A stretch of DNA of 64,000 nt, from contig JAPLKG010000008.1 in the NCBI GenBank assembly GCA_026388185.1, forward strand, positions 124,001 through 188,000, given 5' to 3'. The position numbers and the translations under genes were made by a program. This DNA is from Candidatus Eisenbacteria bacterium (GTDB taxonomy: Bacteria; Eisenbacteria; RBG-16-71-46; JAFGJU01). The notes under the pieces were generated by a model that saw nothing but the letters and a program-made list of their open reading frames with translations, had not been told where the DNA came from and ran no database searches. This document shows, piece by piece, positions 18,418 through 60,329 of this stretch (positions are counted from its first letter, which is position 1; each line of letters starts with the position of its first letter).

Positions 18418-18463
18418 TTACGCGGCATCGCCCTTGCTGTGTGGACAATGGTGGCGGCTTTTG

Positions 18464-41488: not shown

Positions 41489-42160
41489 GCCCTAATCCTT
41501 CTCCCCGCGCACCGTTCTCAGGGCGTCCTTGGATGGAACTTTGTTCTTGAAAGCGATTGAACCTTGTGCAAGCATACGCTTTGAAGTCGGACTTACTCTA
41601 GCACAGCGCCTCAAGATCCACAACGAGATACGGGGGAATGAGACGAGCGGAATACTGTTTCCGCGTGACCCCCGATGGCCTCGGAGCGACGGATGCAAAA
41701 CGGGACATCTTCCTGGAAGGCAGTGGCGGCCGTTCTTATTCCTGTTATCGTCTCGTCCATTCTTGTTGCAGCCATGCTCCTCGTGGTAGGTGGCCAGAGT
41801 TTATCGCTCTACTGACCCCCGGGAAAGGCCGACGCCTTTGAGAGTTGGAGCCCGTGGCTACTCGCGAACAGAGGCGCGGAACGCGTCCACTACCAGAAAA
41901 GCGTTGACTTTTGCGGTGGAGCGTGTTATAGTATCTACGGTTAAGGCTGTGTGCTTCTTGTCGGGCGAGTCGTGGCTGCCCTGTTTCTTTTGGGTAGCTT
42001 GTTGTTGCCACCAACCAGTGGTATAGGCCCACAGCCAAGCCGGGGGTTGATCAAGGAAGGGTCACGGTCAGTTCTGTGGACCGCAGGCTGCCGTGTTTTC
42101 CACTCGCCGGCCGCCAGCGCATCATGCTTGTGGTTACGTAGACTTGGCTAGGTGGGTAAA
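41489..42160. other. Intergenic region with long leader of the polysaccharide locus
   Basis: The 672-bp gap between the deacetylase and the first sugar transferase has no convincing coding sequence in either strand. Its left half holds a small AAAGGC/GCCTTT hairpin (about 41824-41839) and no recognised element. Its right half holds a promoter (41904-41932) and a leader of about 220 nt with several complementary segments. Confidence 0.6.
41904..41932 (+). promoter_or_regulatory. Sigma70-type promoter for the polysaccharide locus
   Basis: TTGACT (41904-41909) and TATAGT (41927-41932) are separated by exactly 17 bp. Transcription would start near 41939, leaving a leader of roughly 220 nt before the first gene. 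Confidence 0.75.
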
Positions 42161-42865
42161 TTGGTAGAGCGTTCGGAAGCGACTAGGCGCGTGATCGACG
42201 TAGTCGTCTCGTCGGTCTGCTTGGTGTTCTTTTCTGTGCTCTTCCTGTTCATCGCTCTCGCCACCAGGGTCGGAACGCGCGGTTCGGTTCTCTTCAGGCA
42301 AAAGAGAGTAGGAATAGGAGAGAGGCCCTTCACCATATATAAGTTCCGGAGTATGCCGGAACCGTGTGAGGTGTTTCTCGACCAGCGAAGACCAGTAGAA
42401 AAGGAAGTGTCCAGGGTAGGGAGATTTCTAAGGGGGCCGGGGCTCGACGAGCTTCCTCAGTTTGTCAATGTGCTCAAAGGGGAAATGAGCCTCGTTGGCC
42501 CGCGTCCTTTGATACCGGAGGAGCTCTACTGCCAGGGAGACCTCTACTACCTTGTGCGTAATCGCTGCCGCGTCAGGCCCGGGTTGACGGGTCTGTGGCA
42601 GATAACGAACAGAGAAAAGGGTGCCGTCCCCCCATTCTTGAGAGAGATGCTTGCCTGCGATGCTTTCTATATAGAGAATCGCAGCATATGGCTGGACTTG
42701 AGAATCTTGTTCGTGACGGTTCTTTACGTGGGAGGTTGCCTCTTCAAGAATGTGACACCTTCCAGGAACGGCAAGGGGCACGTGACTCTCGTGCCTTCCA
42801 AGGAGATCGCAAGGGTGTCCGAACCTCAGTCATATACTGAGGCCAGAACGTCCAAAATTGTGTAG
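42161..42865 (+). CDS. Bacterial sugar transferase (initiating phosphoglycosyltransferase)
   Basis: About 234 residues of the monotopic polyisoprenyl-phosphate hexose-1-phosphate transferase family. An N-terminal membrane segment (VVVSSVCLVFFSVLFLFIALATRV) is followed by RGSVLFRQKRVGIGERPFTIYKFRSM, GLDELPQFVNVLKGEMSLVGPRPL and RCRVRPGLTGLWQI. It starts chain assembly by moving a sugar phosphate to undecaprenyl phosphate. The TTG at 42161 has AGGTGG 5 nt upstream; a GTG at 42152 is possible. A paralogue follows at 43083. Confidence 0.9.
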   Translation: MVERSEATRRVIDVVVSSVCLVFFSVLFLFIALATRVGTRGSVLFRQKRVGIGERPFTIYKFRSMPEPCEVFLDQRRPVEKEVSRVGRFLRGPGLDELPQFVNVLKGEMSLVGPRPLIPEELYCQGDLYYLVRNRCRVRPGLTGLWQITNREKGAVPPFLREMLACDAFYIENRSIWLDLRILFVTVLYVGGCLFKNVTPSRNGKGHVTLVPSKEIARVSEPQSYTEARTSKIV

Positions 42866-43082: not shown

Positions 43083-43856
43083 ATGAGAGAAGTGCTATTC
43101 CGTTCGTCGTTTGAGCCTACAGGCAGAGCGCAAGGGCGTTCCGAGGTCTCGCGCACTGGGCCCTACGCCGGGCCATCCGGAAATCCTGCGTCCGGGATGA
43201 TTGTCCGGGGAGAGACCGCGGCACGTGCCTTGTGGATCATCACGGATGATACTTTCTACCTGCGCCACTTTAAGAGAGTGCTTGACCTTGTTCTTTCGCT
43301 AATAGGCATGATCTTGGGAATCCCCCTGGCTTGTCTCATTGCGCTGGCGATAAAGCTAGACTCGCCCGGTCCTGTCCTGTTCAAACAGGTGAGAGTAGGC
43401 CAGGGGGGAACCCTCTTCGTCTTCTACAAATTCCGTTCGATGTTCGTCGGGGCGGAAGGAATAAAGAAGGAATTTCTTCACCTGAACGAGATGGACGGGC
43501 CAGTGTTCAAGCTCTTCGACGACCCACGAATTACGCGAGTAGGTCGCTTCCTGCGTAAGAGCAGTCTTGATGAGCTTCCTCAGCTCATCAACGTCTTGAG
43601 AGGGGACATGTCACTTGTCGGACCAAGGCCGCCTGTCCCAGAAGAGGTGAGGCTCTATGAGCCGTGGCAGATGCGCAGGCTGGCCGTGAAACCAGGTATG
43701 ACGTGTCTCTGGCAGGTCAGCGGCAGAAGCATCATAGGTTTTGACGAGTGGATGAGACTTGACACCCAGTATATTCGTAACCGGTCCTTTCTCTTAGACT
43801 TACGGATTCTTCTCAGGACCATTCCGGCCGTCCTTTCCGGCACCGGAGCCTACTAG
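43083..43856 (+). CDS. Second bacterial sugar transferase (exopolysaccharide polyprenyl glycosylphosphotransferase)
   Basis: This 257-residue relative of the gene at 42161 begins with about 38 variable residues, then a membrane hairpin (VLDLVLSLIGMILGIPLACLIALAIKL), SPGPVLFKQVRVGQGGTLFVFYKFRSM, SLDELPQLINVLRGDMSLVGPRPPVPEEV and VKPGMTCLWQVSGRS. The start is uncertain; an internal ATG at 43197 would omit the variable part, though the visible ribosome sites are weak for both. Two such enzymes in tandem imply either different lipid-linked sugars or a duplication. Confidence 0.88.
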   Translation: MREVLFRSSFEPTGRAQGRSEVSRTGPYAGPSGNPASGMIVRGETAARALWIITDDTFYLRHFKRVLDLVLSLIGMILGIPLACLIALAIKLDSPGPVLFKQVRVGQGGTLFVFYKFRSMFVGAEGIKKEFLHLNEMDGPVFKLFDDPRITRVGRFLRKSSLDELPQLINVLRGDMSLVGPRPPVPEEVRLYEPWQMRRLAVKPGMTCLWQVSGRSIIGFDEWMRLDTQYIRNRSFLLDLRILLRTIPAVLSGTGAY

Positions 43857-44010: not shown

Positions 44011-44940
44011 GTGAAGCTGTCTCTGGTTGGTAGAAGAGCTCCCTCCTCTAAAGTGCGTGGCAGACCTCGCCGTGGCGAGGCTGGTTGTCTTCTCGGGGCC
44101 ATGAAAGCCTGGGGTCCGCGGAGAAGTCGACGCATGTGCTGCGTGACAAGCTACTTGCCGCTCTTGGCGATGTTCGTTTCACTCGCGGTTGGAGGTTGTG
44201 CGACAACTGAGAAGGCGCCTTCAAACATGGAGAGTGGCATCATAAGGCTCGAGAAACTCACGCAGCCGGAGGAGGCAGGTGTATGGGAAGCAGGAAAGGA
44301 CCGGGTAGGTTGGGAGGCGGATTCTTACAAGCTCCAGTCGGGCGATGAGGTGGAAATCCGTGTTCTTTACAACAATGACCTGTCGACGGTGACGCGCGTC
44401 CTGCCTGACGGCACGATTTCGGCCCCGATAGTGGGCCAGATTGGCGCTACCGGCAAGACTCCCAGTGAGGTCGCCGCAGCAATCGCCGAGGGGTTGAGCC
44501 AGTACATAGTCGAGCCCAAAGTATCTCTCTTGGTGAGAAAACTCGCCGGCAACTACGTCTTCGTTATGGGAGAGGTCAAGTCGCAGGGCGCCTACGAGGT
44601 TCTTGGGCCCTTGACCGTCACGCAAGCCATAGCGAGGGCGGGGGGTGGGACCAACGCAGCCAAGCTGAATAGCGTCCTCGTCATCAGGAGGACGTCTCCT
44701 GACACGGTTGTAGGTATGAGAGTCAACGTTGATTGGCTTCTCAAGAATAGAGTCTCCTCAAAGGACAGGACAGTGCGTGCCTACGACATCATCTATGTAC
44801 CCTCCACCTTTATTGGAAAGGTCGACGTCTTCCTTGAGCAGTTCTTCACTAAGACCTCGTCTCCGTGGCTCTGGTATATCTGGGCGCGCTACGCGATTGA
44901 CTGGAAAGCAACCAGTAACCTGGAGACTCCAACACGATGA
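44011..44940 (+). CDS. Polysaccharide export lipoprotein (Wza-like)
   Basis: About 309 residues, beginning at GTG 44011 with AAGGAG about 9 nt upstream. It carries a lipobox (SLAVGGC) with the Cys near residue 63. That leaves a long N-terminal region, so an internal ATG at 44134 behind GGAGAAG may be the true start. After the anchor come a polysaccharide-export domain (YKLQSGDEVEIRVLYNNDLSTVTRVLPDGTISAPIVGQIGATG) and SLBB-type domains (YIVEPKVSLLVRKLAGNYVFVMGEVKSQGAYEVLG). It should form the outer-membrane export channel for the polysaccharide. The Wzz-like gene follows 67 bp downstream. Confidence 0.88.
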   Translation: MKLSLVGRRAPSSKVRGRPRRGEAGCLLGAMKAWGPRRSRRMCCVTSYLPLLAMFVSLAVGGCATTEKAPSNMESGIIRLEKLTQPEEAGVWEAGKDRVGWEADSYKLQSGDEVEIRVLYNNDLSTVTRVLPDGTISAPIVGQIGATGKTPSEVAAAIAEGLSQYIVEPKVSLLVRKLAGNYVFVMGEVKSQGAYEVLGPLTVTQAIARAGGGTNAAKLNSVLVIRRTSPDTVVGMRVNVDWLLKNRVSSKDRTVRAYDIIYVPSTFIGKVDVFLEQFFTKTSSPWLWYIWARYAIDWKATSNLETPTR

Positions 44941-45007: not shown

Positions 45008-46402
45008 GTGGCAGAGCGCGAGACAGAAAGGTACGAAGCTACGCTGAGGGATTACCTCGGCATCATGTTCCGGCAGAAGTGGGTAATCCTCACTGTTCTT
45101 GCTATTCCGACCATCGTTGTTCTCGTCCAAACACTCGGATCGAGGACGTTGTACAAGTCCACATCAACGGTGCTGTTGAGGAGAGGGCAGAAAGAGAGTG
45201 CGATCGTCCCTTACGTGACCGTGCTTCCCTGGGAAGAGCAGGTTAGTTCGGAGGAGCAAACTGCGACCAGTGCGGTTGTCATAGCAGAGGCCCAGGGTAT
45301 ACTCGACGGATGGCAGACCCAGGTGCCTGAAAAGGAGCGCATTAGGATAAGGGCTGCGTCTGCTGAGGCAGGAATCGTAGGGGAGTCGAACGTTCTGGCC
45401 ATCTCATATGTGGACTACAAGCCCGAAGTCGCAAGAACGGTGACCCAGGCCCTGACCGACGCGTACGTGAAGTACAGGCGGGAGACGGGTCTTGCTCCTG
45501 GCCTTCTGGGTTTCTTCGACACGCGAATCGAAGAGGTGAAGACCAGACTTGACGAATTGCGCAAAGAGCGAGAAGTGTTCATGCAGGAACACGGCGTAAA
45601 CGATCTTGATTGGAAGACCAAGACGCTGCTTGACATGTGGAACAACTTGTCTTCGCAGGTCAGCGACGCCGTTTCTGCGCGAGTTGTCCAGGAAGCCAAG
45701 ATCGCTCAGATGAGGAAGCTCTTGAGCAATCCTGACGTGGAGATGCCCATTTTTGACGACGAGGCTCTTGGCGGCCAGTCCGTCATACCTACGCTTCGCG
45801 GCACCAGAGCAAGTATCAGGCAGGAACTGGAGAAAGTGCAGGCGAATTATACGGACAAGGACCAACGTGTTATTGCGCTCAGGAGACAACTTGCCGAAGT
45901 GGAAGACCAGTTGAGCAAAGAGGTGAAGCAGGCGATAGTGATCGCCGAAGCCAGACTGGGCCCACTCGTGGCCAATGAGAATCAGCTCAAGCAGGGTGTG
46001 GCCAGAGTGGAGGCGCAGTTGGTGGGATATCCCGAGCAAGACGCCGTGCTTGGCGATCTCGATACAAGGATAAGAATACTTGAGAAGGACTACGAATCCC
46101 TGACGAGTAAGAAGACCGAAGCCATGGTTTCCAAGGAGAGCTCTCCCGAGTGGGATGTCATCCTGCTTTCTTCACCTTCCCATGCCGTGGCGCTCAGGAC
46201 AAAGGACTACGTGAGACTTTCTCTGGGGCCTCTGCTGGGCCTCTTGGTAGGAATAGGCTTGGCGTTCTTGTTTGACAGTCTTGATCATTCGGTGAAGACA
46301 AAGAGCGAGGCCGAGACTCTTATCGGCGTCCCTGTCGTTGCGTCAATTGTTGACTTGAAAGGCTGGGACAGGACGCTGCAAGAGTTGGAGAGCAAGAAGT
46401 GA
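45008..46402 (+). CDS. Wzz/GNVR-type chain-length determinant protein
   Basis: This 464-residue inner-membrane protein has an N-terminal helix (WVILTVLAIPTIVVLVQTLG), a large coiled-coil periplasmic region (about residues 150-380) and a C-terminal helix (LGPLLGLLVGIGLAFLFDSL). The topology is that of polysaccharide co-polymerases that set chain length. No kinase domain is fused to it; a separate CpsD-like gene lies downstream. It starts at GTG after GAGGAAAA and overlaps the next gene by 4 bp. Confidence 0.9.
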   Translation: MAERETERYEATLRDYLGIMFRQKWVILTVLAIPTIVVLVQTLGSRTLYKSTSTVLLRRGQKESAIVPYVTVLPWEEQVSSEEQTATSAVVIAEAQGILDGWQTQVPEKERIRIRAASAEAGIVGESNVLAISYVDYKPEVARTVTQALTDAYVKYRRETGLAPGLLGFFDTRIEEVKTRLDELRKEREVFMQEHGVNDLDWKTKTLLDMWNNLSSQVSDAVSARVVQEAKIAQMRKLLSNPDVEMPIFDDEALGGQSVIPTLRGTRASIRQELEKVQANYTDKDQRVIALRRQLAEVEDQLSKEVKQAIVIAEARLGPLVANENQLKQGVARVEAQLVGYPEQDAVLGDLDTRIRILEKDYESLTSKKTEAMVSKESSPEWDVILLSSPSHAVALRTKDYVRLSLGPLLGLLVGIGLAFLFDSLDHSVKTKSEAETLIGVPVVASIVDLKGWDRTLQELESKK

Positions 46403-47259
46403 CGTACGAGGATTTCTACGGACTCAAAGAAAATCCCTTCGGCGTGACACCGGATCCCAGGTTCTTTTTCTCGAGCAAGGGCCATCAGGACGCGCTTGCC
46501 TATCTTCGATACACCCTTGGGGAACATAAGGGCTTTGCGGCGGTGACTGGAGAGGTTGGAGTGGGGAAGACGATGGTGGTCAAAACATTCGTTGAGTCGC
46601 TCAATGGCGGCGTAGACCTGGCGGTCGTGTTGAACCCGAAGCTTTCGTTCAAACAGCTTCTCTCCATCGTCGTGAAGGAACTCGGCTGCACGGTCAAAGG
46701 AAAGAGCAAGGCAGAGCTTCTAATGGATCTCGGGCAATTTCTTGTCGAAGCCAGACGCCGAGGCAGAAGCGTGATTCTCATCATAGATGAAGCTCAGAAT
46801 GTTCCCGTCGCCTCTCTCGAGGAAATACGCATGCTGTCGAACCTGGAGTCCGACGACAGAAAACTCCTCCAGATAGCGCTCGTGGGGCAGCCCGAGCTTG
46901 AGGAGCTTCTGCAGTTGAGGTGCCTGAGGCAGCTCAGGCAGAGGATTCCGGGTGTGTGCACGATCACGCCTTTGTCCCGAGGCGACGTCGAAGAGTATGT
47001 GACAACGCGCATGGCCAAAGCCGGTTCAGACGGGTCGCTCAAGTTTACCGGCGACGCCCTTGACGAGATCTATAGGTACTCAGGTGGAACGCCGAGGCTG
47101 ATAAACTTTGTCTGTGACAGAGCTCTCCTACTCGGCTTTGTTGAGGAAGCACGGCTCATCGACAATAGACTTGTGCTCACCGCCGTCAAGGACTTGGATG
47201 GCGGCTTGGGGAAGGAGCAGGCGACGGAGGGGCGCGTGATCTCTCAGCAGTGTGACTGA
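46399..47259 (+). CDS. ExeA-like AAA ATPase
   Basis: This 286-residue protein has an N-terminal MTYEDFYGLKENPFGVTPDPRFFF segment typical of ExeA and of ATPases in exosortase-linked exopolysaccharide loci. Walker A is GEVGVGKT (about residues 50-57), Walker B VILIIDEAQN, and an arginine-rich sensor region RLRQRIPG follows. A role in energising or positioning the export machinery is inference. It is coupled to the chain-length gene by a 4-bp overlap. Confidence 0.88.
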   Translation: MTYEDFYGLKENPFGVTPDPRFFFSSKGHQDALAYLRYTLGEHKGFAAVTGEVGVGKTMVVKTFVESLNGGVDLAVVLNPKLSFKQLLSIVVKELGCTVKGKSKAELLMDLGQFLVEARRRGRSVILIIDEAQNVPVASLEEIRMLSNLESDDRKLLQIALVGQPELEELLQLRCLRQLRQRIPGVCTITPLSRGDVEEYVTTRMAKAGSDGSLKFTGDALDEIYRYSGGTPRLINFVCDRALLLGFVEEARLIDNRLVLTAVKDLDGGLGKEQATEGRVISQQCD

Positions 47260-47339: not shown

Positions 47340-48086
47340 GTGAGCAAGATCTCAGAAGCGCTTGACAAGGCTGACAGAGAACGAAGACGAGGTGAGGAGT
47401 CAGGGGGTCTTGTTGCGGAAGAGTCCGAGTTGGGCCCATCGCTTTCGGGCGACATACCACGCTCGGTGTGGCGCGAGCTCGGCATCATGAGGAATCTTGT
47501 GGAGTCGCAGCTTCCTTCTCGCAAGTCTCGCTCGCTGCTCTTGACGAGCGCTACTCCAGAGGAGGGTGTGTCCACAATAACCGCGAATTTCGCCAAGGCG
47601 CTCGCCGACGATCCTCTGCTAAACATACTCGTCACGGATGCAAATCCGGGGGACGCCACCCAGCATGAGCTGTTCGGACTGGAGAACAGAGCCGGTTTCG
47701 TGGAGTACGCCAGAGGGGACGCAAGACTGGAGGACGTGATCCAGACCACGACTCGCAGGAATCTTTGTGTCATAACGAGCGGGATGACCACGGCTGGAAT
47801 GTTTCAGTTGGCGGGGACCGAGGGAGTGGCTGCTTTTGTAGAGAGCCTTCGATCTCGTTTTCAATACCTCTTTCTTGACGCACCGCCAGTCCTATCGTAC
47901 CCGGAGACGTCTGTTCTCGGTAGTCATGTGGACGGCGTGCTTCTTGTGGTGCGTGCACTCAGCACCCGACGAGAAGCCGTTGCGCGCGCCCGAGACACGC
48001 TCATGAAGTCCGGCTGTAACGTAGTCGGCGTCGTCCTCAACAGGTACAAGTACTCCATCCCAGAATTCATCTATAGAAGAGTCTGA
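47340..48086 (+). CDS. CpsD/CapB-like ATPase with degenerate Walker A
   Basis: This 248-residue protein has the fold and context of bacterial tyrosine kinases paired with Wzz proteins, but the usual GEGKST P-loop reads PEEGVST. The Walker A lysine (residue 77) is replaced by Val. The A' motif also reads VTDANPGDAT instead of the usual D-D-RR pattern. The Walker B strand YLFLDAPPVLSY is recognisable. The C-terminus has three Tyr (YKYSIPEFIY), where a Tyr cluster would be phosphorylated in active homologues. It may be a pseudokinase. Confidence 0.8.
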   Translation: MSKISEALDKADRERRRGEESGGLVAEESELGPSLSGDIPRSVWRELGIMRNLVESQLPSRKSRSLLLTSATPEEGVSTITANFAKALADDPLLNILVTDANPGDATQHELFGLENRAGFVEYARGDARLEDVIQTTTRRNLCVITSGMTTAGMFQLAGTEGVAAFVESLRSRFQYLFLDAPPVLSYPETSVLGSHVDGVLLVVRALSTRREAVARARDTLMKSGCNVVGVVLNRYKYSIPEFIYRRV

Positions 48087-48137: not shown

Positions 48138-49301
48138 TTGATGGAAGAGCTAGTCTACGAAGGTTCGACAGATGACGAAGAGAGACTCCGGGGGGTCCTG
48201 GAGAGGGCAGCAAGATACATAGTGGAGAGGGTTGGCAAGAAGGGCCTGGAAGCCATAGTATTGGCGGGTGGTTTTGGTAGGGGGGAGGGGACTCTGCATA
48301 GAGACGACGGTGCGCCGGGCCTTCCGTTCAACGACCTTGACCTGCTTCTCGTCGGAACGAGACGAGGCATAGCGTCGGGCGTGCTGCGACATCTCAAGAG
48401 TTCTCTGGCGCAGCTTCTTGGCGTGGATTTTCTGGACATAGGCTACATGTGCTCTTCTCAGTTTCGTGAGGCTCGACCTACCATCTTTCTCTATGACCTC
48501 AAGTACGGGAGCAAGATTCTCTGGGGTTCACCCGACGTCCTTGAGCAGGTCCCGTCGTTCGCCAGCTCCGATTTGCCTTTGACCGAGGCCACGCGACTCT
48601 TTCTGAACAGAGGAATTGGTCTGCTTTACGTTCTTCTCTCGATTGAGCGCGGCGAGACCGGTTCCGTCTCCAGGAAAAACGCTGCCGTCGCGTGGAGCAA
48701 GGTCGTACTTGCCGCGGGCGATGCAATCTTGCTCGAAAGAAAGCTCTACCACTGGTCGTACGTTGAGAGGATGAAGCGAATCGATGAGATGTCCGGAAGT
48801 TCTGTCGCCGATGGGGATTTTCTCCAAAAACATAAGAGCGCCACTCTGTTCAAACTCACGGCAGATTTCGGAGTCTTGCCCACGCAGGACCCCGCTCGGC
48901 TTTGCGTGGAGGCGAGATTCTTGCACGAGAAGTACTTCAGGTGGGTCGAGCAAAATAGAACGTTCGCGAACCTCACGGACTGGACAGCGTACCCGTCTGT
49001 TCTGCTCAGGGTGGGGCTTAGGCCTCTGCGAGGGAGGCTCAAGGACTCTCTGACGGAGCTGAGGAGTGCCCTGGGCCACGTTGACAGGCTGGGTCGCTTC
49101 GCCAGGCTTCCCCTGTGGGGCGAGGAACGAAGACTCGCGCTCCTTCCTTTGGTCCTGTATGCGATTCAGGAATCCGTGAGCCCGCCAAGGGAGAACGGCT
49201 ATCTTGAAGCAGCGTGCATGATCGAATTCGGGCGCAGGAGAGTCGAGGCTCAAGACTGGAATCTGTTGGCGAGCGCGCTTGTCGGGGAATCTCATCCATG
49301 A
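48138..49301 (+). CDS. Nucleotidyltransferase-fold protein
   Basis: This 387-residue soluble protein has the Pol-beta-type motif near the N-terminus: VLAGGFGRGEGTLHRD, then FNDLDLLLVG with the DxD. The rest is helical (for example LFLNRGIGLLYVLLSIERGE) and I do not recognise it. It may transfer a nucleotidyl or related group to a sugar, phosphate or protein. Its stop overlaps the next gene (ATGA), so the two are translationally coupled. Confidence 0.7.
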   Translation: MMEELVYEGSTDDEERLRGVLERAARYIVERVGKKGLEAIVLAGGFGRGEGTLHRDDGAPGLPFNDLDLLLVGTRRGIASGVLRHLKSSLAQLLGVDFLDIGYMCSSQFREARPTIFLYDLKYGSKILWGSPDVLEQVPSFASSDLPLTEATRLFLNRGIGLLYVLLSIERGETGSVSRKNAAVAWSKVVLAAGDAILLERKLYHWSYVERMKRIDEMSGSSVADGDFLQKHKSATLFKLTADFGVLPTQDPARLCVEARFLHEKYFRWVEQNRTFANLTDWTAYPSVLLRVGLRPLRGRLKDSLTELRSALGHVDRLGRFARLPLWGEERRLALLPLVLYAIQESVSPPRENGYLEAACMIEFGRRRVEAQDWNLLASALVGESHP

Positions 49302-50581
49302 ACAACAAGAGAAGCGTCAGGAGCAAGCGTGGATACGGGAGAATCTCCATTTTTGTGCTTGTGGACGCACTCGGATGGCAGTTTGCCCAGGCGCACGCCT
49401 TTCTCTCAGACATGTTGCCCTTCAGGTATCCCGTGGAGACAGTCCTCGGCTTCAGCTCGGCAGCGATCCCCACGATCCTGAGCGGAGAGATGCCGGAAGT
49501 GCACGGCAACTGGTGTCTGTTCAAGAAGGCGAAGTTCTCCTCTTGTTTCAAGTGGACTCTTCCCATGCTCGTCTTGCCCGCGCTGTTGAGAGAGAATCAT
49601 CGTACCCGCAGCCTCGTGTCTGCGTTGACCCGCGCGATGTACGGAATCTCAGGCTACTTCTGTCTGTACGAAGTCCCCGTCTCGATGCTCCATCGTCTTG
49701 ACTACGTCGAAAGGAAAAACCTGTGGGCCCCCGGCGCACTGTCAGGGTGTCCGAACATTTTCGATAGACTCACGTCGTGTTCTGTTCCCTACTACTCCAG
49801 CGGATGGAATCGCTCCGACGAGCATAGGACGGAGGCTTCGTCCGGCGCTCTCTCGGACGGGCCACTTCGGTGCTGTTTCTTGTACTTGAGCGAGCTGGAT
49901 GCCGCCCTACATCGCTTCGGCCTGGAATCCAGACAGACCAAGGAGGCGCTTGCGGCTGCGGGCGTAAGAATCAGAAGGCTCGTTGCGAGGGCCGAAAGAC
50001 TCTATTCGTGCGTTGAACTCTTTGTCTTCTCTGACCACGGCATGACACCCGTCACGGAATGTCATGACCTACAGTCGGTGATGACTTGTTCCGGGCTCGA
50101 CGGCTCCCGCCATCAGGCATTTTTCGATGCGACGATGGCGCGCTTCTGGCCCAAGGACACTGAGGCGAAGGCACAGATCGAGAAGGTGCTCGCCCCGCTC
50201 CAATTCGGCAGAATCCTGTCCGACGCGGACAGGACAGAGCTGGGTCTGAGATTTAGAACCAACGAGTATGGGGAGATCATCTTCGTCATGAATCCGGGCC
50301 ATCTGATCGTGCCGAGCCACGTGGGAAGCAAGGCTCTCGAGGCGATGCATGGCTTTCATCCTTCGGACGAGTACAGCCGTGCTTGCTTTCTCTCTTCGAA
50401 GGAGCTCGATGTCCCTCCGCATCACGTGCGCGATCTGTTCTCGTTTTTTGTGAGGCAGCTCGATCTCGATGTCACGAAAACTGTCGGGGCGACGGGACCG
50501 CGCCGGTCTGGGATCAAGGAAGGCGATCGTGAGGACACTGCGGGATTCGAGTCTGAACAATCCAGTGCGCCCCAATTCTAG
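49298..50581 (+). CDS. Alkaline-phosphatase-superfamily phosphodiesterase/phosphotransferase
   Basis: About 427 residues from the ATG at 49298, which overlaps the previous stop. Metal and active-site segments of the superfamily are visible: FVLVDALGW, the nucleophile loop GFSSAAIPTILSG, LSELDAALHRFG, FSDHGMTP and the final MHGFHP. This pattern is used by nucleotide pyrophosphatases, phosphoglyceromutases and polymer-modifying phosphotransferases. With a nucleotidyltransferase partner inside a polysaccharide locus, a decorating or trimming role on phosphodiester-linked groups is possible but inferred. Confidence 0.82.
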   Translation: MNNKRSVRSKRGYGRISIFVLVDALGWQFAQAHAFLSDMLPFRYPVETVLGFSSAAIPTILSGEMPEVHGNWCLFKKAKFSSCFKWTLPMLVLPALLRENHRTRSLVSALTRAMYGISGYFCLYEVPVSMLHRLDYVERKNLWAPGALSGCPNIFDRLTSCSVPYYSSGWNRSDEHRTEASSGALSDGPLRCCFLYLSELDAALHRFGLESRQTKEALAAAGVRIRRLVARAERLYSCVELFVFSDHGMTPVTECHDLQSVMTCSGLDGSRHQAFFDATMARFWPKDTEAKAQIEKVLAPLQFGRILSDADRTELGLRFRTNEYGEIIFVMNPGHLIVPSHVGSKALEAMHGFHPSDEYSRACFLSSKELDVPPHHVRDLFSFFVRQLDLDVTKTVGATGPRRSGIKEGDREDTAGFESEQSSAPQF

Positions 50582-50679: not shown

Positions 50680-52215
50680 GTGACCGGAGACGACGCGAGA
50701 CGAAACTTCACTGCACGCAAGGTCTCCGTGGCGATGGGCTGGAGTGTCGGCGCAAGGGTGACACGGCTTGCCATAGGTGTGGCCACTTCGATCATCGTAG
50801 TGAGGGGTCTTGGAAGGTATGACTATGGTGTTCTGAGCATCGTAAGAACGATTCTGACCTTTTTGGCCTTCGTCTGCGGATTGGGATTGGGTCAGGCTCT
50901 TCTGAGATTCATGCCCGAGCTGAGGATCAAGCGTGACGTCGAGGGAATGAGAGGGCTTTTTGCTTTCGTGCTCGTCGTACAGGTAATAGCCTGGGCAGTA
51001 TTTCTTGCCATCTTCACCTTTGGGGCGGGCAGCATTGAAGTTCTGTACCGGACACCCGGTCTGGCTTTCATTCTCAAAGTCGGAGTGGCCCTCATTCTGA
51101 TCGATCTTGTGGGTCTTCTGCTTTCGCAGATGCTGACTTCTTTCTACGACGTGAAACTCCTCAGCGTGTACACGACCATCTCGCTTCTCGTCACACTTGG
51201 CCTGACCGTAGTGTTTCTGAAGATGGGCTATGGGGTCTTGGGTGTTCTGGTGGCGGCAGCCGTCTCGGGGGCCATGCTTGCGGTGGCTCTGTTTGATCGC
51301 TGCGCTCTTCATGTCCCCCTGAGTCTCAGACCCTCCCTGTCCGACGCGAGGAGAGTACTTAGGTACTCTATGCCTTTTGCCGTGATATCTCTGCTCAACC
51401 TCATAACGTGGAGACAGTCGGAGACGCTGTTCCTGGGCTACTTCAGGACTCCCGTCGAGGCGGGACTCTTTGATCTCGGCTACAGGATTCCACAACAGAT
51501 GCTCGAGCTGGTGCCTGGAGCCGTGTGGCCGTTGCTCCTGGCCACGTTTTCGGAAGTCTATTCGAGGAGGAGAGAATCTCTCGGGGACGCCATCAGCGGC
51601 TACTACAAGCTTCTCTTTGTCTTGGTGGCACCGATCTCCATTTTTGGCGCGGCGATTTCGGGACCAGCTGTTAGAATACTCTTCGGTTCGGAAATGGCCA
51701 GCTCTGGAACGCTGGCTCAGATGTTCTTCTTGATTTTCTCGGTCTCGTTCTTTTCAACTCCACTGAGCATGGCACTGTACGTGAGGGAGCTCACCTGGTT
51801 GAATCTCGTCATATACATCTGCAATGCTACCGTGAACGTGGGATTGGATTTTGTACTGATACCCAGATACGGGTTGTACGGCGCGGTGGTGCCGGTGGGA
51901 TTGGTAGTATTGGCCTCGCCTTTTGTCTATTACTACACGCTCAGACGAGTGGGCTTCAGCTATTCGATACCTTGGGGTTTCATCGGGAGATGCTACCTGG
52001 CCTCTTTGCCCTTGCTGAGTTTCTTTGTCTTTGCGAGGCGGATTAGCTCGGTCGGCAGTCTGATCGCGATATGCGTACTGGGAATCCTGGTTTTCTGGGG
52101 ATCGGCCAGGTTGGTGCGCATTTTCAGGAATGAAGAAAAGATCCTTCTCGAGGGGCTCGGTCCCCCCATCAGGTCGCTCGTTCTGGGCGTGTTCGGTTGG
52201 AAAGGTCAACGTTAA
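50680..52215 (+). CDS. Polysaccharide flippase (Wzx/MOP family)
   Basis: This 511-residue protein has about 12-14 membrane segments, beginning with VATSIIVVRGLGRYDYGVLSIVRTILTFLAFVCGLGLGQALLRFMPE. The GRYDYGVLS motif and periodic arginines are typical of polysaccharide-type MOP flippases that turn lipid-linked repeats to the outer face. It starts at GTG after GGAAGGGG. It lies between the phosphodiesterase and epimerase genes. Confidence 0.92.
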   Translation: MTGDDARRNFTARKVSVAMGWSVGARVTRLAIGVATSIIVVRGLGRYDYGVLSIVRTILTFLAFVCGLGLGQALLRFMPELRIKRDVEGMRGLFAFVLVVQVIAWAVFLAIFTFGAGSIEVLYRTPGLAFILKVGVALILIDLVGLLLSQMLTSFYDVKLLSVYTTISLLVTLGLTVVFLKMGYGVLGVLVAAAVSGAMLAVALFDRCALHVPLSLRPSLSDARRVLRYSMPFAVISLLNLITWRQSETLFLGYFRTPVEAGLFDLGYRIPQQMLELVPGAVWPLLLATFSEVYSRRRESLGDAISGYYKLLFVLVAPISIFGAAISGPAVRILFGSEMASSGTLAQMFFLIFSVSFFSTPLSMALYVRELTWLNLVIYICNATVNVGLDFVLIPRYGLYGAVVPVGLVVLASPFVYYYTLRRVGFSYSIPWGFIGRCYLASLPLLSFFVFARRISSVGSLIAICVLGILVFWGSARLVRIFRNEEKILLEGLGPPIRSLVLGVFGWKGQR

Positions 52216-55003: not shown

Positions 55004-56188
55004 ATGATGTCGGGGAAAGTGCTCGTCATAGGGGCAGGCTTCCTACAGGCCTTTGTGATCAGACGAGCCTGCGAAATGGGGCTCACCGTCGTAGCCGTTG
55101 ACAGAGATCCCAGGGCTCTCGGCTTCGAGTGGGCCCACAAGCGGGTGGTCGTGGACATAAAGGACCAGGGGAGCTGTCTCGAGGTCGCTGAAAGCGAGAG
55201 CGTTGACGCCGTCCTGTCGGTCTGCACCGATCTTGCGGTGAAGACGGTGGCTTTTGTTGCGGGCTCTCTCGGTCTTCCGGGGCTTCCCGCCGAAGCAGCG
55301 CGAACGTGTACAAACAAGGCGCTGATGAGAGAAACACTCGCGCGTGCGCACGTGGGGCGTGTCGCTTTCGGGAAGGCGAGCTCTCCGGAGGAGGCGGTCC
55401 GGGCTGCTTCTTCGATTGGTTTTCCCTGCATCCTCAAACCGGTGGATTCGGTGGGGAGCAGGGGAGTCACAAAAATAGATAACGTCTCGCTGGTTGTGGC
55501 AGGTTTTGAGGCCGCGGCTCGAGCGTCCGCTTGCGGAGACGTCATCGTAGAGGAATTCATAGACGGTCCGGAGATTAGCGTGGAGGCCGTCACGCGGGGA
55601 GGAGAAACTACGATTGCCGCCGTGACTGACAAGATTACGAGCGGCCCGCCGCATTTCGTTGAACTGGGGCACACCCAGCCGTCCGTGTTTTCGGACGAAC
55701 GGGCAGTGAGAGAGACCGTTCAGGACTGTGTGCGTGCGCTCGGAGTGGACTGGTCAGCCAGCCACACCGAGCTAAGACTTACGGAAGAAGGCCCGCGAGT
55801 CATGGAGGTGGGTGCGAGGCTCGGAGGTGACAGGATCACTTCGGACCTCGTGCCTCTTTCTACCGGAATAGACCTCATGGAGGCGGTGATCCTGACTTCC
55901 TTCGGCCGTGCGCCGCAAATGACACCGCGGTACAGGAAGGGTTCGGCCATACGTTATTTGCGTGTGCCCCCCGGTAGGATAACAGCGATACGGGGAGTCG
56001 AGTCCGCCCGTTCGGTGGCGGGCGTGACGGACGTACACATGGACATGTCAATCGGGGACACCGTTCCTCGACTCAGGAGTAGCCTCGATAGAGTCGGGCA
56101 CGTCGTGGCACAGGGTCCTAGCGCATCTGAGGCAGCCAGCGCGGCCGAAGAGGCCGTGGCCAGGATAGAAGTAGAGGTGAGACAGTGA
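55004..56188 (+). CDS. ATP-grasp ligase
   Basis: This 394-residue enzyme begins with a Rossmann-like segment (KVLVIGAGFLQAFVIRRACEMGLTVVAVDRDPRALG). It has the ATP-grasp core: FPCILKPVDSVGSRGVTKI, VIVEEFIDGPEISVEAVTRGG and the metal-binding VMEVGARLGGDRITSDLV. The family joins a carboxylate to an amine or thiol with ATP. In a sugar locus it might attach an amino acid to a sugar, but the substrate is unknown. It overlaps the glycosyltransferase gene by 4 bp. Confidence 0.85.
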   Translation: MMSGKVLVIGAGFLQAFVIRRACEMGLTVVAVDRDPRALGFEWAHKRVVVDIKDQGSCLEVAESESVDAVLSVCTDLAVKTVAFVAGSLGLPGLPAEAARTCTNKALMRETLARAHVGRVAFGKASSPEEAVRAASSIGFPCILKPVDSVGSRGVTKIDNVSLVVAGFEAAARASACGDVIVEEFIDGPEISVEAVTRGGETTIAAVTDKITSGPPHFVELGHTQPSVFSDERAVRETVQDCVRALGVDWSASHTELRLTEEGPRVMEVGARLGGDRITSDLVPLSTGIDLMEAVILTSFGRAPQMTPRYRKGSAIRYLRVPPGRITAIRGVESARSVAGVTDVHMDMSIGDTVPRLRSSLDRVGHVVAQGPSASEAASAAEEAVARIEVEVRQ

Positions 56189-56913
56189 CAAGAGGTTCAC
56201 GTATTCTCGTGGTGATTCCGGCTTACAATGAGGTCTCAAACGTGGGCAAGGTCGTGGAAGAGGTGAAGAGAGAGGCTCCCTCTGTCGACGTCTTGGTGGT
56301 AGACGACGGATCCATCGATGCTACGGCCGACGCGGCTCTCAAAGCCGGAGCCATCGTTGTCAAGCTGCCCTTCAACCTCGGAATGTTCGAGGCGGTGAGG
56401 ACGGGTTTTGTCTACGCGGACAGGAAGGGCTACGACATCGCAATCCAGGTCGACGCCGACGGGCAACACGTTCCCCGTGAGATAGGAGCGCTGGTAGATC
56501 CAGTCGTCAGAGAGGGTTTTGATGTCGTAGTGGGCTCCAGATATCTTGAGAGTCGCGGATACAGAACACCTTTCTTTCGCAAGTGCGGCATCAGTCTGTT
56601 CGCATGGCTCACGTCGGTGGTGTTGGGACAGAAAATCACAGATACAACATGCGGTTTCAGGTCCTACGGCACGCGCGCAATAAGGATGTTTGCCAGGTAC
56701 GACTCGGCCGAGTTCAAAGACTCCGTGGGGCTTGTGATTCTTGGAAGGGCAGGGCTGAAGATAAAGGAAATCCCGGTGACAGTGCGTGAAAGGATTGGAG
56801 GCAGGTCGACGATCTCGACCATCAAGGCGCTCATCTATCCCTTCGACTTCGTCCTTTCGCTCGTGGCCGTACTTGTGAGAACGAGACTTACCGTTCCTGG
56901 AGGTGAAGCATGA
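56185..56913 (+). CDS. Family 2 glycosyltransferase (dolichyl-phosphate mannose synthase-like)
   Basis: This 242-residue GT-A fold protein has ILVVIPAYNEVSNVGKVVEEV, VLVVDDGSIDATADAALKAGA, and the DxD-containing AIQVDADGQHVPREIGALV. A C-terminal membrane-associated segment ends with ALIYPFDFVLSLVAVLVRTRL. It likely transfers a sugar from a nucleotide donor to polyprenyl phosphate or to a growing lipid-linked chain. The GTG start overlaps the ATP-grasp stop, and its stop overlaps the DUF2304 gene. This GT2-DUF2304 order is common. Confidence 0.93.
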   Translation: MTRGSRILVVIPAYNEVSNVGKVVEEVKREAPSVDVLVVDDGSIDATADAALKAGAIVVKLPFNLGMFEAVRTGFVYADRKGYDIAIQVDADGQHVPREIGALVDPVVREGFDVVVGSRYLESRGYRTPFFRKCGISLFAWLTSVVLGQKITDTTCGFRSYGTRAIRMFARYDSAEFKDSVGLVILGRAGLKIKEIPVTVRERIGGRSTISTIKALIYPFDFVLSLVAVLVRTRLTVPGGEA

Positions 56914-57347
56914 TAACTCCCAGAGTAGAGCGCTTCGCTATTGTGATTAGTATAGTGCTCATACTCATCGTGCTGGACATGGTGAGAAGACGAAGGCTGA
57001 GAGAAAGGTATTCGCTCGTCTGGCTCTTTGCAGTTGTGGCAATGACGACACTCGTGGTGTGGGAGAAGCTCTTGGTCTCGATCACTTCCATGATCGGAGC
57101 CACGGATCCTTCTTCCACTCTGTTTCTTTTCGGAATCCTATTTGCACTCGTGATCCTTCTTCATCTTTCAAACAAGGTCTCGGATTTCTCAACGCAGCTC
57201 AGGATACTGGCCAAGGAAATGGCCGTGCTGAACGCCCAACTCTCGGAGGTTCGCCCTGCGCATTCAACTCGTGAGGAGGGGGCGCGAGACAAGAACCTGG
57301 GCCGTGAGTCGGAAGGAAGCAGAGTAATCGAGGAGGGCCGGTTATGA
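56910..57347 (+). CDS. DUF2304 membrane protein
   Basis: This 145-residue protein has three hydrophobic segments (FAIVISIVLILIVLDMV, SLVWLFAVVAMTTLVVW, LFLFGILFALVILLHLS) and a charged helix, as in DUF2304. Members frequently pair with polyprenol-linked GT2 enzymes, as here. They may assist membrane anchoring or flipping, but the role is not proven. It overlaps both neighbours by 4 bp. Confidence 0.85.
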   Translation: MITPRVERFAIVISIVLILIVLDMVRRRRLRERYSLVWLFAVVAMTTLVVWEKLLVSITSMIGATDPSSTLFLFGILFALVILLHLSNKVSDFSTQLRILAKEMAVLNAQLSEVRPAHSTREEGARDKNLGRESEGSRVIEEGRL

Positions 57348-57709
57348 AAACCGCCGTCTACGTATTCGTGTGCGTGACCATGCTTGTGGCCGGGCAACTT
57401 CTGGTCAAGCATGGACTCACTCTGAAGGGTGGGTTTCAGCTTTCTCTCTCTTGCTTCTGGCCCGAGTTCACCAAGCTCATCACGTCCGGCTACATATGGC
57501 TGGGAGCGTTCGTGACCATGAGCAGCGGGCTACTCTGGATGGACGTGCTTTCGAAGAGAGAGCTCAGCTTCGTCTATCCCTTGATAAGCCTGACGTACGT
57601 GTTTTCTCTCGCCGCATCGACCCTCATCTTCAGAGAACATGTTTCTCCGCTCCGCTGGTTGGGAGTGGTCGTCATTTGTCTGGGTGTATACATGGTTTCG
57701 AGGAGTTGA
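57344..57709 (+). CDS. Small EamA/SMR-type transporter (ArnE-like)
   Basis: This 121-residue protein has four membrane segments: AVYVFVCVTMLVAGQLLVKHG, YIWLGAFVTMSSGLLWMDVL, LSFVYPLISLTYVFSLAAS and LRWLGVVVICLGVYMVSRS. The SFVYPL motif is typical of ArnE/ArnF-type subunits that flip undecaprenyl-linked sugars. With the GT2 and DUF2304 genes it may make a lipid-carrier sugar pathway feeding the polymer. Confidence 0.88.
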   Translation: MKTAVYVFVCVTMLVAGQLLVKHGLTLKGGFQLSLSCFWPEFTKLITSGYIWLGAFVTMSSGLLWMDVLSKRELSFVYPLISLTYVFSLAASTLIFREHVSPLRWLGVVVICLGVYMVSRS

Positions 57710-57713
57710 GAAC

Positions 57714-60329
57714 GTGAACACGGTGGCCAGCGAGAAGACCGTCGCGCGGTTCTTCCTCGCAGTGTTTCTCGTCTCTCTGGGCGGCCTCTGGCTTTGCCGC
57801 GCGTGTGGGATAACGAACGGATTCAGTCTCGCCCCATCCCTTTTTCTGTTTCTGATCGCTCCCGGTTTCATTCCTTCGCTCAGGATAGGACGGAAGCTTG
57901 GGCTCGGTCTCCTGGAAGTGCTTCCGTTTGCTGTCAGTTTGAGCTTGGGGCAGGCTGCTCTCTTGCTTCTGGTGTTCGATTGGCTTGGTCTCTCCGTGTT
58001 CAATGCAACGTGGGCACTGCCGACCTGCACTTTGGCGTGGTACCTTTGGATCGAACTCGCGGGCACGAGGGGAACGGAATTCGGAGCCGGATCGGACATC
58101 GACTCCGCCCAACCGCGTCTGAGTCGACGGGCCACGAGGTTCCTCTACTTGGCCTTGCTTCTCTACCTCATTGCCGTCTCCGTTCTGCTTCTCAGGGCCG
58201 GCGCCCCTCTCCAGTGGCAGACTGATGCGCCGGCGCATCTTGCTGCTATCCGCGGTGTGGTTGAGGAAGACAGGGTTTTCCCCGCGATGCAACCTTACGG
58301 CCCAAACGGAGTGGTGAAACCCGACCCACGATTCGGCGTTTTTCATGCGCTGTGCGCGCTCCTTTTCGTCGCCTCTGGAACAGAGATATACACTCTCTGG
58401 AAAGCGCTGCCCGCCTTCTTCACTCCATTCCTTGCCCTGGGGCTCTTTTCTGCCACGAGGTCTCTGACTGGAAACGTCAGAGCAGCCTTCGCCGCCGCCT
58501 TTCTTTTCCCGCTCTGCTATGGTGGTATTGGTGGTGGCGCGCTTCGCACAGTTGGTTACCCGAACAGAGTGTCCATGCTTCCGTACCTCGTCTCGTTGGC
58601 AGTGCTTTTCACGTATCTCCGAGCGGAGAGAAGATGGCTTCTGATGCTACTCGGGATTCTCGCCGTGACGACGGTCGCGGTACATGTCTACTATTTCATC
58701 GAGTTTCTCTTCGTCGTCACTTGTTTCTTCCTTCTGAAATTTCTGGTGTCGTGGGCCGACGCGTCTCGGATTGCCAAGTGTTGGGCTCGCGTTGTCGGGG
58801 TCACCGTAGGCATCTCACTGCCGTTTCTCGTGTACAGGCTTCTAAGCTCGTATTCCACGGCGAATCCATATTCCGTTGAGGGCCAGAACCTCCTCTACCT
58901 GGACGAACGGTTCTACATTCTGAACCCGTTCAAAGCCTACGGCTGGTTCGGTCTTGCCGGCACAGCCTCGCTCTTGCTCTTGCCATACTTCATTCTGCGT
59001 GCAAGGAAGAGCGACGCGTACGTCTTTGTCACGGCGGCAACCGCAGGACCCTTGCTTCTGATATTCAACCCCCTCGCCATGCCCGTCGCGAGCAAGGTGC
59101 TGAGTTATCTTGCCTGGCGATTGATGTGGGCCGTGCCGTACGTTCTCTCGATCGGGATCTTCGTGACAGAGTTTCCCGTAAACATCAGGCGTTCGTCGCT
59201 GAAGAGCAAGTTTTTCTCCTGCGTCGGGATGGGGCTCGTTGTGGCGGCGCTCCTCGGAACACTGAATTGGAGAGTGGATTTCTACAAGAAAGCCGTTGAG
59301 ACGACGCGGGAATCCTTCGCGGACGATTTTGCCGTGGCTTCCGGAACTCTCGGCCGCCTCGACAAAGAAGTGAAAGGCAGACGGGTCTTTCTCTCGGATC
59401 CAGTCACCGCATACGCGATTCCTGCGTTGACGAGGCACTTCGTGACGGCGATACCCGTGGCTCATTCCGCGCCGACCGATTCCTTTCCCGTCAGCAGGGT
59501 CAGGGACGCTCTCGATGTCCTCAATCCCTCGGTGGGTCTTCGACGAACGGCCGAAGTGCTCCGAAAGTACGGCGTGGAATATGTGATGGTCAACACCGGC
59601 TTTTCTGAGAGACTGCACGCGTTTGAATACGAAATCGATCCCGAGGAGCAAGAACGTGTCCTCTCAAAGATCACCTCTGCCCGTGTCTTGTTCGAAGAAA
59701 TCTTTTCCGAGGGGGACCTGCATGTTTTTCGCGTGACCGATTTGAAGAAGGCGGAATTTCAAGAGGGCGGGCTGTCGCGGAATCTCGTTCCGGGCGAAGC
59801 GGACTTCGTTTCGACGCCGATCGCTGATTTCGCGAGCCTCTTTTCCATGGAGAGAGTCCGCGTATCGCCGGCGTCCGTGGAGCCGGGCGACTCAGTCAGC
59901 GTTCACTTTCTCTGGAAGTGCCTTTCTCCTCTTCCACGTGAAGACGTCTACAAGCTATTCATAAGAATGGACACCGAGTTTCCAAGAGGGCGCTTCTTCG
60001 CGAAAAGCTTGGGCAAGCCCTACAGGAAGCTCCTCGAACGAAGGGTCGGAAAGAGGTTTAGACTCAAGGTGGACGTGGATCCAGAGGGGTGCGAGCCTCC
60101 CTTGCACCTCTGGAAGAGGGGGGAACTCGTGGAGCAGGTCGTAACCTTTCCGGTTCCGCTAACCCTGTCTCCGGGCAGGTACAGTGTGAAGGCCAATCTG
60201 AGAAGGACGCCCGCTTCGATGGACTTCCACGTTTCTGACTACTTGCGGGACGAAGACTACTTTTCTGGCGTTGAGATAGGAAGCGTGGTTGTTCGAGGCG
60301 AGAAGACGACCGACGCTCGTGTGCCTTGA
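57714..60329 (+). CDS. Large multi-pass membrane protein of the polysaccharide locus
   Basis: About 871 residues from the GTG at 57714, which has GAGGAG 8 nt upstream; the frame upstream overlaps the transporter. The N-terminal 500 residues have about 11-13 membrane segments and a short periplasmic motif (QTDAPAHLAAIRGVVEEDRVFP) resembling lipid-linked-sugar glycosyltransferases of the GT-C type. The C-terminal 350 residues are soluble and beta-rich. A GT-C-type transferase or polymerase using the carrier sugar from the preceding genes is plausible, but I cannot name a family. Confidence 0.7.
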   Translation: MNTVASEKTVARFFLAVFLVSLGGLWLCRACGITNGFSLAPSLFLFLIAPGFIPSLRIGRKLGLGLLEVLPFAVSLSLGQAALLLLVFDWLGLSVFNATWALPTCTLAWYLWIELAGTRGTEFGAGSDIDSAQPRLSRRATRFLYLALLLYLIAVSVLLLRAGAPLQWQTDAPAHLAAIRGVVEEDRVFPAMQPYGPNGVVKPDPRFGVFHALCALLFVASGTEIYTLWKALPAFFTPFLALGLFSATRSLTGNVRAAFAAAFLFPLCYGGIGGGALRTVGYPNRVSMLPYLVSLAVLFTYLRAERRWLLMLLGILAVTTVAVHVYYFIEFLFVVTCFFLLKFLVSWADASRIAKCWARVVGVTVGISLPFLVYRLLSSYSTANPYSVEGQNLLYLDERFYILNPFKAYGWFGLAGTASLLLLPYFILRARKSDAYVFVTAATAGPLLLIFNPLAMPVASKVLSYLAWRLMWAVPYVLSIGIFVTEFPVNIRRSSLKSKFFSCVGMGLVVAALLGTLNWRVDFYKKAVETTRESFADDFAVASGTLGRLDKEVKGRRVFLSDPVTAYAIPALTRHFVTAIPVAHSAPTDSFPVSRVRDALDVLNPSVGLRRTAEVLRKYGVEYVMVNTGFSERLHAFEYEIDPEEQERVLSKITSARVLFEEIFSEGDLHVFRVTDLKKAEFQEGGLSRNLVPGEADFVSTPIADFASLFSMERVRVSPASVEPGDSVSVHFLWKCLSPLPREDVYKLFIRMDTEFPRGRFFAKSLGKPYRKLLERRVGKRFRLKVDVDPEGCEPPLHLWKRGELVEQVVTFPVPLTLSPGRYSVKANLRRTPASMDFHVSDYLRDEDYFSGVEIGSVVVRGEKTTDARVP

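Follow-up and report, generated by a model that had tools for sequence, protein, structure and literature searches.

The window, a stretch of 64,000 nucleotides from a 2.6 Mb Candidatus Eisenbacteria genome, carries two overlapping genes inside a polysaccharide assembly locus. The first gene, called NT here, is predicted to encode a nucleotidyltransferase of the Pol-beta fold, and the second, called AP, encodes an NPP-type enzyme of the alkaline phosphatase superfamily. The features around the pair are as follows.

42152-42865 and 43083-43856, + strand: two Bac_transf sugar transferase genes (PF02397)
44011-44940, + strand: Poly_export (Wza-like) protein (PF02563, E 1.8e-19)
45008-46402, + strand: Wzz-like chain-length determinant (TIGR03007, E 4.2e-25, below cut-off)
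46399-47259, + strand: XrtA/PEP-CTERM-type AAA ATPase (TIGR03015, E 1.2e-87, 293.8 bits, below the cut-off of 324.5)
47340-48086, + strand: BY-kinase-like (Wzc C-terminal type) ATPase, 5' of NT (TIGR01007, 106.5 bits against a cut-off of 108.05)
48138-49301, + strand: NT, predicted Pol-beta-fold nucleotidyltransferase, 387 aa from TTG
48267-48341 (to the second Asp), + strand: NT active-site stretch GGFGRGEG ... PFNDLDLLLV with G44, E50, D66 and D68 (P0001 numbering)
48435-48437, + strand: NT third carboxylate, D100 (P0001 numbering), D or E in 42 of 46
49298-49301, + strand: ATGA start/stop overlap of NT and AP, 4 bp, from the sequence
49298-50581, + strand: AP, NPP-type alkaline-phosphatase-superfamily enzyme, 427 aa, ATG start at 49298
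49454-49456, + strand: AP nucleophile position Ser53, invariant in 71 of 71, aligned with the Thr of the ENPP7 VTMT motif in a weak, motif-level alignment
50680-52215, + strand: Wzx-like flippase, the next gene after AP (Polysacc_synt_3, E 3.4e-21)

NT can start at the TTG at 48138 or at the ATG directly after it at 48141, and the ATG is the likelier start. An earlier note on this DNA had described a 4-bp overlap, a Pol-beta-type active site in the first gene, an intact phosphatase-superfamily site in the second and a polysaccharide setting. These observations hold up: the ATGA junction is read in the sequence, NT has the GG motif, the D-x-D/E and the third carboxylate, AP has all seven catalytic or metal-binding residues, and the Pfam and NCBIfam matches of the neighbors agree with such a locus. 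On the 3' side of AP the window holds the flippase, an NAD-dependent epimerase/dehydratase, a DegT aminotransferase, a GNAT acetyltransferase, an ATP-grasp ligase, glycosyltransferases and a glucuronyl C5-epimerase-domain protein. The last of these (61621-62595, D-glucuronyl C5-epimerase C-terminal domain, PF06662, E 8.7e-46) is flanked by two GT4 genes and hints at a uronic-acid polymer. The consecutive genes at 56185-60329, which encode a GT2, a DUF2304, an EamA-like and an 896-aa DUF6541 protein, might form an additional glycosylation module.

The window NT has no Pfam or NCBIfam match. Its AlphaFold model (pLDDT 90.3, pTM 0.90) predicts a Pol-beta-fold domain and a C-terminal helical, HEPN-like domain in one chain. 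Residues 1-275 of the model align with AadA over both domains (Z 12.8, rmsd 3.9 over 224 residues), and residues 15-268 align with AAD(9), again over both domains (Z 12.3), while MntA and HalB fall below these two in Z; residues beyond about 290 were barely probed by the structural search. NT has the signature of the Pol-beta superfamily, in which a GG/GS motif precedes D-x-D/E and a third carboxylate, and by motif and strand order D100 sits where AadA has its catalytic base, Glu-87. In AadA, two Asp and Glu-87 coordinate ATP and Mg, and the enzyme, with Glu-87 as its catalytic base, O-adenylates a hydroxyl on a sugar ring (PMC6065190).

Conservation was read from alignment A3, which joins the window protein to NTs located near AP, 45 of 46 because a length filter removed L094; its positions are numbered from the ATG start and are one less than in P0001. 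The glycine G43 is kept in 45 of 46 sequences, R47 and E49 in 44 of 46 each, and N156, R157 and K187 in all 46. The first D of the D-x-D (D66 in P0001, D65 in A3) is D in 42 of 46, N in 3 and a gap in 1; the second (D68, D67 in A3) is D in 36 of 46, E in 8, T in 1 and a gap in 1; and the third carboxylate (D100, D99 in A3) is D in 37 of 46 and E in 5. Among 21 NTs of the host class, the window's included, the D-x-D is present in 21 of 21, the Arg of GRGE in only 4 and a third carboxylate, D or E, in 16. Some NTs of the host class may therefore have altered chemistry, and for that class these substitutions weaken a strictly catalytic reading.

The NT family is essentially unannotated, within a known superfamily. 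Identity is mostly 15-31% outside the host family, and NTP_transf_2 is matched weakly by 9 of 46 family members (best E 1.6e-4), the window protein not among them. Searches of PDB sequences with NT profiles returned mostly unrelated helical proteins and weak ANT rows. A scan of genome contigs with the single NT sequence found no relative, probably because NT diverges fast, and the loci were recovered with an AP profile instead.

Like AadA and AAD(9), NT joins a nucleotidyltransferase domain to a HEPN-like helical bundle in one chain, as in the ANT enzymes, and it shares the D-x-D and the third carboxylate. It differs from them in its low identity (12-15%), in a further C-terminal segment (about residues 290-386), and in its polysaccharide setting with a co-inherited AP partner. 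No ANT family model matched the window NT, 21 class members (Pfam and NCBIfam) or 46 family members (Pfam only). The NT domain also resembles MntA in fold (Z 11.0 over 119 residues), and an MntA model is matched weakly by 2 of the 21 class NTs (best E 0.042). MntA, however, consists of one short domain and has its HEPN toxin encoded by a separate gene, whereas NT carries its helical domain in the chain and has an NPP-type partner. The neighbors of the window NT are the BY-kinase-like gene and AP, with no separate HEPN toxin gene beside it; on this ground, and because the pair is found in polysaccharide loci, a toxin-antitoxin reading was rejected. A HEPN survey covers kanamycin nucleotidyltransferase and MNT-HEPN pairs, and the word polysaccharide does not occur in the part of its text that was available (PMC3710099).

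AP matches Pfam PF01663 with 59.3 bits against a gathering cut-off of 23. Its AlphaFold model has a pLDDT of 92.0 and a core that begins near residue 15. The closest structural neighbors are ENPP6, autotaxin, ENPP1 and Xac NPP (Z 29-30), with ENPP6 at Z 30.0 and an rmsd of 2.9 over 320 residues. Alignment A4 comprises the window protein plus 70 APs from the best 80 loci described below, with ten excluded for size. All seven positions of the two-metal site of the superfamily (D, S/T nucleophile, D, H, D, H, H) are present and invariant in its 71 sequences: D23, S53, D201, H205, D246, H247 and H351. The ENPP7 Thr with which Ser53 aligns is the nucleophile of that enzyme. D277, T279, R282 and W284 are likewise invariant in 71 of 71.

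NPP diesterases use an Asn near the phosphate. At the corresponding AP position, L74, the 71 sequences have F, L, S, Y, M or C and never N, in a part of the alignment that is weak, so plain NPP diesterase activity of AP is not assured. AP shares with Xac NPP, ENPP1, ENPP6 and ENPP7 the fold, a PF01663 match above the cut-off and all seven ligands, and differs from them in lacking a membrane-type stretch and the conserved Asn, in its own four invariant residues and in its NT partner. The top hydropathy windows of the window NT and AP are below 1.4, against 2.8 for the neighboring flippase, and a value of 1.9 is reached by 2 of the 46 NTs and by none of the 71 APs. With no membrane-type hydrophobic stretch, and with the AP core starting at about residue 15, both proteins look soluble and cytoplasmic.

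Co-occurrence was evaluated in samples of genomes. Single-sequence searches of 59 genomes found AP in 29 and NT in 12, and profiles recover more NTs. In a host-phylum sample of 47 genomes searched with profiles (AP E <= 1e-10, NT E <= 1e-5), AP was found in 29 and NT in 28; 27 genomes have both, 2 have AP only, 1 has NT only and 17 have neither. All three single cases are at or within about 600 bases of a contig end: one AP (G018) has its start about 600 bases into a contig, the other (G042) runs off the end of its contig, and the lone NT (G004) is 85 bases from one. The two genes share a contig in 22 of the 27 genomes with both, NT directly upstream, and are on different contigs in 5, several of these visibly at contig ends. 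The second sample consisted of 240 genomes from the phylum of G069, a Lentisphaerae record, searched at AP E <= 1e-40 and NT E <= 1e-10. Here AP and NT were each found in 61 genomes, 59 of which have both, with 2 AP-only (G426 and G429, both partial matches), 2 NT-only (G337 and G478) and 177 with neither; in G470 the NT consists of two pieces, with a stop.

The phi coefficient between NT and AP is 0.87 in the 47 genomes and 0.96 in the 240, and the Fisher values ignore relatedness. The earlier note had proposed looking for the pair in relatives and had named a lack of co-occurrence elsewhere as what would speak against it. The outcome was strongly positive (27 genomes with both genes against 3 with one in the first sample, 59 against 4 in the second), and no such lack appeared. 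A chance pairing was rejected on the basis of these two samples. In the class of G081, a gammaproteobacterial record, the pair is too sparse to contribute much: among 185 genomes, both genes were found in 2, one of them the genome on which the sample was founded. The same class sample contains one NT-only partial match, in a genome without AP, in which an ORF (L187, 5933-7861, + strand) matches only positions 194-371 of the NT profile, its C-terminal half. The upstream part of that ORF shows no NT, and the ORF may represent an NT with a disturbed frame.

That polysaccharide loci are modular, and that NT and AP can lie far from each other, would suit unrelated accessory genes that merely share such loci. 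The export gene used as a control, Poly_export, is far commoner than the pair (46 of 47 and 197 of 240 genomes), which means that only some polysaccharide systems carry the pair and that polysaccharide loci alone do not explain the co-inheritance. The association is also kept when the genes are unlinked: they are 3.9 Mb apart on one contig in G359 (less if the contig is circular) and on different contigs in G282. Given this near-perfect co-inheritance, we consider unrelated accessory genes a very improbable explanation.

A broader set of loci was collected by searching genome contigs with the AP profile, which gave at least 472 related stretches. The best 80 loci, from many phyla, were kept; they are a selection by AP similarity and not a balanced sample, three of them (L063, L064 and L067) come from genomes of the host-phylum sample, and two (L085 and L104) are from the same assembly. 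In 46 of the best 80 an NT is present within about 9 kb of AP, or up to the contig end: directly upstream of AP in 23 and otherwise nearby in 23. For the other 34, NT was found elsewhere in 29 genomes (for L085 this includes the copy beside L104, locus L143) and nowhere in the genomes of L066, L073, L077, L080 and L092. Both genes are present in the named isolates Thiohalocapsa halophila DSM 6210 (L068 and L153) and Lentisphaera marina IMCC 11369 (L133). Unlinked NTs have sugar transferase, Wzz/BY-kinase, Wza, Wzy or glycosyltransferase neighbors in L173, L177, L179, L181, L182, L185 and L186; the same kinds of neighbors flank NT in L183 and L184, from the NT-only genomes, and in L175 the only named neighbors of the unlinked NT are SpoIIE- and STAS-type. 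The ORF clusters behind the counts of neighboring genes include spurious antisense ones, and only clusters identified by Pfam or by the NT and AP profiles were used; since Pfam identified one member of each cluster, the labels of the other members rest on clustering.

In 18 of the 46 NT-bearing loci among the best 80, and in 11 of the 20 loci L143-L162, NT is immediately preceded by a GT2 gene. GT2 and NT form a single ORF in one Myxococcales record, a MAG (L126, 6809-8983), and AP and GT4 form single ORFs in two MAGs of one phylum, recorded as Omnitrophica/Omnitrophota (L069, 8953-11244; L112, 8977-11502). Single-ORF fusions in MAGs could be assembly errors.

A STAS cluster occurs in 29 of the best 80 AP loci, with RsbW- and SpoIIE-type genes near in many. 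These neighbors, the BY-kinase-like gene directly before NT in the window, and the resemblance of the NT domain to MntA, which AMPylates protein, are consistent with a regulatory cycle in which NT would nucleotidylylate a protein of the polysaccharide machinery (a BY-kinase, a glycosyltransferase or a STAS/RsbW switch) and AP would remove the nucleotide. However, STAS, RsbW and Wzz/BY-kinase clusters are absent from the fetched stretch of many pair loci (stretches end at contig ends) while the pair is nearly always complete, the fusions are with glycosyltransferases and not with regulators, and the fold that best matches both domains belongs to a small-molecule enzyme. The glycosyltransferase fusions and the co-inheritance modestly favor biosynthesis over regulation, the STAS clusters also fit a regulatory role, and we judge the regulatory cycle unlikely. 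As a separate observation, an RR-SpoIIE phosphatase, an RsbW-like kinase and a STAS gene precede AP in L068, L072, L077, L080, L086, L106 and L110, all gammaproteobacterial records; these genes are a partner-switching module tied to the polysaccharide locus.

Two further gene types precede NT. A PRK/uridine-kinase-family gene is directly before it in a few loci (L159, which is L181, and L183, with L069 and L129 by cluster membership), and a gene for a hexapeptide (GMPPB/eIF2B-like) protein precedes it in several. Both would suit an activated-donor route that starts from a small alcohol or nucleoside, which the kinase phosphorylates, NT activates and AP transfers or trims. Yet the kinase cluster occurs in only 5 of the best 80 AP loci, and AadA modifies a hydroxyl and not a phosphate (PMC6065190), which leaves this route a rather doubtful one. 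The kinase-family gene overlaps the NT gene in L181 (7943-8611, - strand; the same as L159) and in L183 (6491-7132, + strand), and its product could recycle a released nucleoside or make the NT substrate.

The structural matches bring up a nucleotide signal as well, with NT making a signal or oligonucleotide and AP hydrolyzing it, so controlling polysaccharide output. HalB, a nucleotidyltransferase solved with oligodeoxyadenylate (9dbh), was the top Foldseek family by E-value (9dbj), and ENPP1, an NPP-fold match of AP, has been solved with cGAMP and pApG. Against this, the HalB TM score is low (0.25-0.38) and its Z of 9.8 is exceeded by AadA, no receptor or effector gene was recognized among the named clusters of the pair loci, and glycosyltransferase fusions would be unexpected. 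A signaling pair seems improbable.

Our preferred reading, which we hold at close to an even chance, is that NT and AP work as an obligate pair of enzymes, probably in the cytoplasm, in one type of exopolysaccharide or capsule assembly, where NT makes a nucleotidyl phosphodiester and AP acts on it. By analogy with the aminoglycoside adenylyltransferases, NT would move a nucleoside monophosphate, perhaps AMP, from an NTP to a hydroxyl of a sugar intermediate before flipping, for example a lipid-linked oligosaccharide or a sugar donor. AP would attack the resulting nucleotidyl phosphodiester through Ser53. It might strip the nucleotide off again, making the modification a reversible cap, or it might exchange the nucleoside for another alcohol or for water, so that a phosphate or phosphodiester substituent stays behind; the sequences fit both outcomes. 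Several findings weigh against this two-enzyme assembly reading: the NPP Asn is not conserved, most NTs of the host class lack the Arg of GRGE and some the third carboxylate, STAS clusters accompany many APs, 5 of the 34 loci without a nearby NT have none in the genome, and the fusions come from one MAG (GT2-NT) and from two MAGs of one phylum (AP-GT4).

The earlier note had suggested that the two enzymes add and remove, or transfer, a phospho-linked group on the polymer or its lipid carrier. That suggestion is partly supported: the adenylyltransferase-like and NPP-type folds fit the chemistry, the acceptor may be a polymer precursor, the lipid carrier, a sugar donor or a protein, and AP may either reverse or complete the NT reaction. 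Since both proteins seem to be cytoplasmic, they are unlikely to act on the exported polymer, and a precursor that has yet to be flipped is the likelier target. A more general version, that the pair is a general route for adding phosphate or phosphodiester groups to polysaccharides, is a tentative and less probable proposal. Here NT would cap a sugar hydroxyl of a cytoplasmic carrier-linked glycan, and AP would displace the nucleoside and leave a phospho-substituent, or remove the cap and so license export.

LicD-type phosphocholine transferases and periplasmic phosphoglycerol and phosphoethanolamine transferases are NT-fold or AP-superfamily enzymes that put phospho-groups on bacterial glycans. 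In contrast to these, NT and AP both lack membrane-type stretches and occur together, and the LicD family model in Pfam matched neither the window protein nor the 21 class NTs nor the 46 NT members. We know of no counterpart of the NT-AP module among glycan phosphotransfer systems. A search by title found no account of the pair in the open-access literature, which is weak evidence of absence as most subscription papers lie outside its scope. The components belong to known superfamilies, and the pairing is apparently undescribed and a possible new pathway step. Because NT and AP are co-inherited in widely separated bacteria and neither has a known job, the pair points to an undescribed step in polysaccharide making. 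The two enzymes, whose activities match chemically but look opposite, are co-inherited in the polysaccharide loci of different bacterial phyla, and the pair, which may reveal a nucleotide-dependent step in exopolysaccharide assembly, is a clear target for two-gene knockouts and assays.

Elsewhere in the window, at 18434-24328, lies a 1964-aa ORF with an SprA_N match (PF14349, motility related/secretion protein, E 8.5e-23), here in an Eisenbacteria genome.
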